DNA of 64,000 nucleotides from an uncultured Latescibacterota bacterium. GTDB taxonomy: Bacteria; Latescibacterota; UBA2968. The notes beneath the pieces are model-generated. The model was given only the letters and a program-made list of their open reading frames with translations. It ran no database searches and was not told the origin of the DNA. The stretch is taken from assembly GCA_951812755.1 (NCBI GenBank), contig OX638329.1, positions 2,031,339 through 2,095,338 on the forward strand. Direction: 5' to 3'. Numbering within the stretch: the first letter of the stretch is position 1; each line of letters opens with the position of its first letter. The position numbers and the translations under genes are program-made. This document shows positions 23,447-26,748 of this stretch, piece by piece.

Positions 23447-23568
23447 AAAAGCCTCCTTTTAATTTTTGATGATCTTACCCGCAAAATATTGCATTGTACA
23501 ACATCGGGCAAGGACTAAGATATAAACCCAATCGGTCCGTCAACCACACAAAAGCACGAGGAATCGCC

Positions 23569-24039
23569 ATGGCACAAACGAACGAAAGCGTGTCCATTGC
23601 AATTGAAGACAGCGTGATTCACTGCGATAAAGAAATCATGGGGGGTACGCCCGTTTTCAAAAGAACCCGCGTGCCTGTAAAAAACTTGTTTGACTACCTG
23701 GCCAAGGGCTACAATCTGAAGGATTTTCATTACGATTTTCCAACGGTATTCCGAGAGCAGACGTATGCTGTGCTTGAAATGGCCAGAGAGACTCTGGAGC
23801 AGGAAGCCTATAATGCCCCTAACAGCGTTTTTCACAGCGATCCCGAAATCGTGAGCGGAACTCCTGTATTTGTGGGAACCCGGCTGCCGATTAAAAATCT
23901 GTTCGACTGTCTGGCTGTCGCGTACAGCCTGAAAGATTTTTTTTACGAATTTCCATCAGCGAACCAGGAACAGTTAGTAGCCATTCTGAAAATGGCCCAG
24001 GAAGTCCTGGAGAAAAAGGCTCGTGCAGATACTATTTGA
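23569..24039 (+). CDS. Protein with two tandem DUF433 domains
   Basis: About 156 residues from the ATG at 23569 contain two DUF433 copies: CDKEIMGGTPVFKRTRVPVKNL with a following GYNLKDFHYDFP, and SDPEIVSGTPVFVGTRLPIKNL with YSLKDFFYEFP. DUF433 proteins are usually single-domain, VapB-like partners of DUF5615 toxins. Here the domain is duplicated, which is unusual. The gene overlaps the DUF5615 gene (GTG 24023) by 17 nt, implying coupling. An earlier ATG at 23494 has weaker support. Confidence 0.85.
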   Translation: MAQTNESVSIAIEDSVIHCDKEIMGGTPVFKRTRVPVKNLFDYLAKGYNLKDFHYDFPTVFREQTYAVLEMARETLEQEAYNAPNSVFHSDPEIVSGTPVFVGTRLPIKNLFDCLAVAYSLKDFFYEFPSANQEQLVAILKMAQEVLEKKARADTI

Positions 24040-25263: not shown

Positions 25264-25341
25264 ATATCCATACGACACTTTTGGGATGCAGACTCGTCTT
25301 TATAGTAAAACACGCGTGGATTGATTTCTTGTGGAGCATTC

Positions 25342-26748
25342 GTGGAACAAATTGAAGACAGAGCACTCATTGCTCAAATTCTGGACGGCGACCGCAAAGC
25401 ATTCGCAATTCTGGTGCAACGCTATTCGCGATATGTGTACGCCCAAATTGCCCGATCTGTGCGACTGGTTGACGATGTAGAAGACCTGGTCCAAATCGTA
25501 TTTGTCAAAGTGTTCGAAAATCTGCACCAACTTCGCAAACCCGACCGATTTAGACCCTGGTTACACAGCATCATACGCAACGCCGTCAACTCCCATCATC
25601 GCCGTCGAGCCGTGCAATTGCGGTTAGAAGAAACATTTTATCCAGAACCTGCAACGCACGATGAAGAAGAAATCAAACAGGTTGTGCGAGCTGCGCTTCG
25701 CATCCTATCGGCTGAACACCGCCAGGTAATCGCCCATCACTATTTCAAAGGGTATTCTTATGCGGAAACAGCCGACCTCCTGAACCTCACGGTAGAAACC
25801 GTGCGCGGGCGTCTGAGGCGTGCGCGTGTAAAATTGAAAGGAGAGTTACACAAAATGTCGGATATTCAAACACAAACGACTGAACTGGACCGCGCGGACA
25901 TGGACGCGCTCAAAAAAGTAATCGGTTTTGTAAGCGACGACGAAAAACGCCCGATCTTGCAGGGCGTATGTCTCGACACAGGCGGTCGCGCGACTGCGAC
26001 CAACGGGCATATCATGATCATTCGCACCTTAAAAAGCCTCTCGGAATTGGCCGCCCCAATTGTCCTCGGACCCTGGTCAGGCATTCAATTGCCCGAACAA
26101 GCCACATTGAAAATTGCGGAAGAGACCGCGGAAATCCAGAGCAATGGCACAACCCTTCAGGTACCCTTAATCGAAGGTCCTTATGTCAAATACGAACAGG
26201 TCATTCCTCAGGAAGATCCCGCAATGCGAGTTTCCATCTCCTCGGATCTTCTGGCACCTGCACTGGACTTACTACAAGACTTCATGGAAACGCGGCATCC
26301 AGAATCAGGCCCGCAGGGGTGGCAATATCGTCCTCGGGTAGATCTGCATCTCTCGCCACTGACCCAGACCATAACCTTTCTCACATCCCGAGATACGGGA
26401 TATACCCGCGAAGACAATGGCAAATTCCAATATCTCCTCGACGCGAAAGATGACGACTCTCCAGGAGGCGTTGCGGATTGGATATTTCAAGTACCGCTCA
26501 ATGCCAAATTTGAAACACCATCAGAAGACACACCCAGGTTGAACGGGTCTGAGGAACGCCCCGTTGTACACCGCTTTGCCGTGAACTTCGCATATCTCAA
26601 ACAGATTCTGCATGCTCTGGACTTTGAAGACAGCGATGAAATCACAATGGAATTTAGAGAACAGAGCAAAGCGATTATCTTGCGCACACCCCTGAATGCG
26701 GAATGGCTGGCATTGCTAATGCCGTTGAGACTGAAGTCAAAGGATTAA
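25342..26748 (+). CDS. ECF sigma factor fused to a DNA polymerase III beta-clamp-like region
   Basis: About 468 residues. Residues 8-90 are sigma region 2 (LIAQILDGDRKAFAILVQRYS, DVEDLVQIVFVKVFENLHQL, FRPWLHSIIRNAVNSHHRRR). Residues 120-170 are region 4 (AEHRQVIAHHYFKGYSYAETADLL...VRGRLRRAR). From about 180 the sequence matches sliding-clamp domains II-III: VIGFVSDDEKRPILQGVCLD, TATNGH, VPLIEGPYVKYEQVIP, then FAVNFAYLKQILHAL and MPLRL at the end. The first clamp domain is missing. I start at GTG 25342 with GGAG at 25333. M172 (25855) has its own AAAGGAGAG upstream, so a clamp-only product is possible. Residues about 401-411 derive from a dispersed repeat. I know of no such fusion. Function is inferred only: tethering transcription initiation to replication or repair proteins is possible, or the clamp part may act as an anti-sigma-like or dimerising module. 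Confidence 0.8.
   Translation: MEQIEDRALIAQILDGDRKAFAILVQRYSRYVYAQIARSVRLVDDVEDLVQIVFVKVFENLHQLRKPDRFRPWLHSIIRNAVNSHHRRRAVQLRLEETFYPEPATHDEEEIKQVVRAALRILSAEHRQVIAHHYFKGYSYAETADLLNLTVETVRGRLRRARVKLKGELHKMSDIQTQTTELDRADMDALKKVIGFVSDDEKRPILQGVCLDTGGRATATNGHIMIIRTLKSLSELAAPIVLGPWSGIQLPEQATLKIAEETAEIQSNGTTLQVPLIEGPYVKYEQVIPQEDPAMRVSISSDLLAPALDLLQDFMETRHPESGPQGWQYRPRVDLHLSPLTQTITFLTSRDTGYTREDNGKFQYLLDAKDDDSPGGVADWIFQVPLNAKFETPSEDTPRLNGSEERPVVHRFAVNFAYLKQILHALDFEDSDEITMEFREQSKAIILRTPLNAEWLALLMPLRLKSKD
26542..26575 (+). repeat. Diverged dispersed repeat inside the sigma-clamp gene
   Basis: 26 of 34 bases match the 13444-13477 copy of the AACTGGCCTGAG...GTTGTACACCGCT module. It encodes NGSEERPVVHR within the clamp-like region, without breaking the frame. 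Confidence 0.6.

Follow-up and report, generated by a model that had tools for sequence, protein, structure and literature searches.

We describe a gene of Candidatus Latescibacterota in which an ECF sigma factor is fused, within a single open reading frame, to the second and third domains of a beta clamp (DnaN). The fusion is conserved in one class of the phylum, and its clamp half has lost parts of the DNA-encircling ring and kept the peptide pocket. Our best reading, put forward tentatively, is that of an ECF sigma factor with a clamp-derived regulatory extension that would bind a clamp-binding peptide and gate the sigma factor.

Gene organization and sigma factor domains

The gene lies in a 64,000-nucleotide stretch of DNA, referred to here as the window. 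Its 468-aa reading frame is free of internal stops, and its start region is kept in 8 genomes of the same genus. The following features define the gene, its sigma domains and the region upstream:

25342..26748, + strand: whole fusion gene, 468 aa; GTG start, with a TTG at 25321 as a possible alternative
25411..25611, + strand: ECF sigma region 2, residues 24-90 (Pfam PF04542, E=6.4e-13)
25681..25836, + strand: ECF sigma region 4, residues 114-165 (Pfam PF08281, E=2e-12)
25273..25298, + strand: CGACACTT-N12-CTCGTC, an ECF-promoter-like motif conserved in the genus

By domain content, the N-terminal part is an ECF sigma-70 factor: Sigma70_r2 and Sigma70_r4_2 both exceed their Pfam curated cut-offs and region 3 is absent. 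Sigma regions 2 and 4 had been assigned to this part by an earlier, sequence-only reading of the window, and Pfam places them there. The upstream motif may be the putative promoter of the fusion gene itself. An exact search of the host genome for CGACACTT-N12-CTCGTC, aimed at the regulon, returned the fusion gene's own site as the sole match, and a looser form of the pattern yielded one further site against one control match. Elsewhere in the window, a 181-aa open reading frame (23494-24039, + strand) carries two tandem DUF433 domains, and an N4/N6 DNA methylase (PF01555; 30283-31308, - strand) has an HTH-like insert between its SPPY motif and its second half.

Identification of the clamp half

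Sequence profiles and predicted structures assign the C-terminal part of the protein to two clamp domains:

25873..26235, + strand: clamp domain 2, approximately residues 178-298 (TIGR00663 positions 136-267, profile against PDB, models)
26236..26733, + strand: clamp domain 3, approximately residues 299-464, with an enlarged loop at about 353-409 (profile against PDB, alignment, model)

The NCBIfam model TIGR00663 (dnaN) matches the C-terminal part in two stretches, positions 136-267 and the C-terminus (E=1.3e-12). Its score of 47.4 bits falls below the whole-DnaN cut-off of 137.65, as expected of a partial copy, and the host's own DnaN scores 271.9; the Pfam clamp domains 2 and 3 match the window protein below threshold only. 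A profile built from 13 homologous C-terminal halves retrieved beta clamps among PDB sequences (E=2e-14), aligning with clamp domain 2 and the C-terminal part of domain 3. When the clamp half was modeled alone with AlphaFold (pLDDT 82, pTM 0.83), every Foldseek match listed against the PDB was a beta clamp (best E=3e-15, prob 1.00). These superpose with a TM-score of about 0.6 and an rmsd of 5-6 A, so the angle between the two domains probably differs from that of known beta clamps. A structure search with the full-length model yields the same relatives; that model is less certain (pTM 0.55), the linker between sigma regions 2 and 4 is modeled at low confidence, and contacts between the sigma and clamp halves cannot be read from it.

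Of the three domains that make up DnaN (PF00712, PF02767 and PF02768), domain 1 is absent from the fusion and domains 2 and 3 are recognizable by profile and fold. The sequence-only reading had proposed an ECF sigma factor fused to a clamp-like region with about two of the three clamp domains, and had suggested a structure search of the C-terminal part. Sequence and structure support both halves, the count of domains was correct, with domain 1 as the missing one, and the search recovered the clamp fold.

Loss of ring features and retention of the peptide pocket

Two short segments mark what the clamp half has lost and what it has kept:

26065..26094, + strand: LGPWSGIQLP loop, residues 242-251, which replaces lumenal helix 2 of clamp domain 2 (alignment, models)
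26713..26733, + strand: LLMPLRL, residues 458-464, C-terminal wall of the peptide pocket; Met460 and Pro461 are invariant and correspond to E. coli Met362-Pro363

The loop stands where the E. coli clamp has IVPRKGVIELMRMLDGG (about residues 194-210). In the alignment no member has lumenal helix 2 of domain 2, and the models contain no helix at this place. The equivalent of R197 is lost and other basic lumen residues are replaced, also by alignment, and the first helix of domain 3, basic in DnaN, is neutral or net acidic in all members. The clamp half therefore lacks the DNA-facing basic character of the helices that line the DnaN lumen. A search of the host genome for a separate domain-1 gene or protein able to complete the ring found none. 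Without domain 1, the second helix of domain 2 and the basic lumen residues, the clamp half is not expected to assemble into a working ring; judged on these defining features, the fusion does not belong functionally to the DnaN family. The same absences speak against the earlier suggestion that the fusion tethers transcription initiation to replication, at least by encircling DNA.

The peptide pocket presents the opposite picture. Apart from R152, G174 and P363, the residues on our pocket list are those generally assigned to the pocket in E. coli structures. Those three touch bound peptides in the E. coli clamp (PMC3716654). The equivalents of E. coli R152, G174, N320, M362 and P363 do not vary in any of 19 members. 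His175 is changed to Ser or Ala in two clades. Identity between the window protein and the host DnaN amounts to 17/20 positions in the pocket, 10/58 in the lumen helices and 37/148 elsewhere. The pocket residues between domains 2 and 3 are retained, which predicts peptide binding and fits the earlier guess of a clamp-fold module for binding partners. Since the pocket is the best-conserved part of any DnaN (the host DnaN is identical to that of E. coli at 15 of the 20 positions), its conservation in the fusion shows retention rather than new selection, and is a necessary, not a sufficient, condition for peptide reading.

Distribution and evolution

Among 64 genomes of the phylum, 23 carry the fusion; these belong to four families of one class, with identities down to about 33%. 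The remaining clamp matches in the 64 genomes are ordinary DnaN. The 64-genome search covered this one phylum, and beyond it pattern-based scans addressed close relatives only. No relatives of the fusion were found in IMG/VR or phage records, where the phage matches listed span the sigma part only. The sequence-only reading had proposed looking for the same architecture in other genomes, and for a stop or frameshift separating the two parts: the architecture proved conserved and always fused, with no split at a gene boundary. The exceptions are an orthologue from another genus with a single in-frame TAG, located in clamp domain 3 (G019; L010, L027), an orthologue truncated by a contig end (G010), and a remnant in the genus of the window that retains just the first 94 residues (G001; L019). 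Within that genus, 9 of 11 genomes have the fusion, one carries the remnant, and one, a single contig, lacks it altogether (G008). From this phyletic spread, together with the genome that lacks it, the remnant and the TAG, we conclude that the fusion is ancient in the class yet dispensable. In G019, a second ECF sigma gene adjoins the TAG-bearing orthologue in divergent orientation (L010, L027).

Trees built separately from the sigma and clamp halves agree on the clades but leave deep nodes unresolved, and this agreement is consistent with a single fusion event. Estimates of dN/dS within the genus (0.14 for the sigma half and 0.16 for the clamp half) and in two other clades (0.14-0.27) indicate that purifying selection acts on both halves. 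The host genome encodes one normal three-domain DnaN besides the fusion, and the clamp half lies nearer to this protein than to the E. coli clamp (46.6 vs 27.7 bits), as exemplified by LIEGPYVKYEQVIPQ in the clamp half and LIEGPYVDYEQVIPQ in the host DnaN. Partial duplication of dnaN from this lineage would be the simplest origin. No conserved neighbors were found beyond the genus or genus-level clade, and no conserved anti-sigma gene adjoins the fusion.

A possible second product from the junction

The boundary between the two halves contains a potential translation start:

25837..25843, + strand: AAAGGAG, a Shine-Dalgarno-like string that precedes the junction ATG by 11 nt (by 9 nt in other clades); assessed with the codon test described below
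25855..25857, + strand: junction ATG (Met172), possible internal start of a free 297-aa clamp half, in all 23 orthologues

The gene might hence yield, besides the fusion, a separate clamp half translated from Met172, much as an anti-sigma gene may overlap an ECF gene; we consider this possible but doubtful. The linker around Met172 varies, but the residue itself is kept in all 23 orthologues, and GGAG precedes it by 9-11 nt. The GGAG arises from differing codons, AAA GGA GAG in the genus of the window vs AAG GAG or GAG GAG in other clades, and of the other internal Met codons in six clade representatives, 54 in all, just one has an equally strong site. The same layout recurs at four of five unrelated ECF fusion junctions inspected in the phylum (L092, L094, L119 and L124, not L088), each with a Shine-Dalgarno-like string and an in-frame ATG directly after sigma region 4. 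Against this, in a synonymous-codon test the amino acids and codon usage suffice to account for the string (p 0.37-0.88), and protein-level constraint on the last helix of sigma region 4 would explain it equally well. Of these other fusions, L092 (G000:C1, about 2106000-2107100) has a 3-keto-disaccharide-hydrolase-like domain behind the sigma factor, and L094 (G000:C1, about 4371000-4372700) joins an ECF sigma factor to a region without domain assignment.

Proposed mechanism and alternative readings

In the reading that we favor, a stand-alone ECF sigma factor would carry a C-terminal extension copied from beta-clamp domains 2 and 3, which would act as a peptide reader and no longer as a DNA-encircling ring. 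The surviving pocket would bind a clamp-binding motif (QLxLF-like), offered either by a replication or repair protein or by the sigma factor's own linker between regions 2 and 4 (QLRL and variants), and the binding or release of this peptide, in whichever direction the switch worked, would alter the ability of the sigma factor to join RNA polymerase. Other ECF sigma factors of the phylum bear different C-terminal domains, such as the 3-keto-disaccharide-hydrolase-like one, so a regulatory role is a natural one to look for in an extension of this kind. The C-terminal extension of ECF41 touches a motif in the linker and blocks the sigma factor from RNA polymerase (PMC8999054), and by this precedent the clamp half may control sigma activity. 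A broader proposal, that a built-in, ring-incompetent clamp half sets the sigma factor by reading clamp-binding peptides, that the regulon would consequently report replication or repair traffic, and that a free clamp half made from an internal start may possibly take part, appears to us rather speculative.

It is unlikely that the clamp half is simply a degenerate structural or small-molecule-binding extension, comparable to the SnoaL domains of other ECF sigma factors, with the pocket as a leftover. ECF sigma factors do often bear C-terminal extensions that sense small molecules (PMC8999054), the loop of domain 3 is enlarged, and divergence of the clamp half outpaces that of the sigma half in two clades (dN/dS 0.24 and 0.27), but conservation is far stronger in the pocket residues than in the remainder of the clamp half.

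The linker between the sigma regions contains a segment that enters both the preferred reading and a further alternative:

25615..25626, + strand: QLRL, residues 92-95, in the linker between sigma regions 2 and 4 (alignment); resembles the clamp-binding motif QLxLF

Gln92 is invariant in all fusions and is followed by a hydrophobic-x-hydrophobic pattern (QLRL, QIRF, QLNL, QLDL, QLQL), close to the clamp-binding consensus QL[S/D]LF and to the QLNLF of UmuC (PMC3716654). Through this motif the sigma factor could dock on the normal DnaN ring, with the fused half competing for it or masking it, so that the sigma factor would sense free clamp or replication status. We regard this as quite unlikely, given that position 5, Phe or Leu in the consensus, is Glu or Gly in several clades and that generic ECF linkers are similarly hydrophobic. 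We had also considered the motif as unique to the fusions, a notion weakened by two unrelated ECF sigma factors that have Gln at the same linker position (L119, L127). Because these two share the Gln and the hydrophobic pattern is common among ECF sigma factors, the candidacy of the linker as a ligand in our preferred reading also appears weaker than at first sight.

A mobile enhancer akin to that of phage T4 is improbable. It would have the clamp halves assemble into a trimeric, PCNA-like DNA ring of six domains that carries the sigma factor to promoters and couples transcription to replication. Both PCNA and T4 gp45 consist of three two-domain subunits, and in late T4 transcription a clamp-binding epitope links the sigma factor gp55 to the clamp gp45 (PMC2988020; PMC9690074); the fused half likewise has two domains, and free halves could arise from the junction ATG. 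Such a sliding ring is made less likely by the missing lumen features set out above, from the second helix of domain 2 and the R197 equivalent to the neutral or acidic helices, and it would require both a new interface between domain 2 and domain 3' and a clamp loader that accepts a clamp half. Finally, the idea that the fusion is an artefact of assembly or gene calling, which its initial oddity, the in-frame TAG and the remnant might have prompted, is refuted by its occurrence in 23 genomes, three of them single-contig, all in frame across the junction.

Relation to known systems and significance

To our knowledge, phage T4 is the only well-known case of transcription initiation coupled to the replication clamp. 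Actinobacterial MerR-type regulators annotated in databases with DnaN-like domains would presumably be other joins of a transcription regulator to a clamp; plasmid and literature searches found no MerR-clamp fusions. A Streptomyces dengpaensis plasmid has a sigma-70 family gene and, two genes further downstream, dnaN as a separate gene (L100).

Like the ECF sigma factors with C-terminal extensions that have been reviewed (PMC8999054), the fusion has an extra domain joined behind regions 2 and 4 and lacks a conserved adjoining anti-sigma gene, and this extra domain is conserved among its orthologues in 23 genomes; unlike theirs, its extension consists of two beta-clamp domains. That 2022 review mentions neither "clamp" nor "DNA polymerase" (PMC8999054). 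With DnaN (TIGR00663) the fusion shares domains 2 and 3, the clamp fold, the peptide pocket and the C-terminal MPxR motif, but it has neither domain 1 nor the second lumenal helix of domain 2 nor the basic lumen residues, scores below the family cut-off and is joined to a sigma factor. In phage T4 late transcription (gp55, co-activator gp33 and gp45; PMC2988020), a sigma factor is also physically linked to a sliding-clamp protein, but through separate proteins and a ring that encircles DNA, whereas the fusion is one polypeptide whose clamp half is without ring features. The sequence-only reading knew of no sigma-clamp fusion, and none appears in the literature searched, most subscription papers being outside its reach; within that literature, no ECF sigma factor bearing such a C-terminal extension is described.

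If our reading is correct, the clamp's partner-binding pocket would be separable from the ring and reusable, and a conserved cellular sigma factor with a clamp-derived peptide reader would provide a direct and genetically simple link from replication or repair to gene expression. The retention of the pocket in a clamp half without ring parts hints at a switch of gene expression that responds to proteins of replication or repair.
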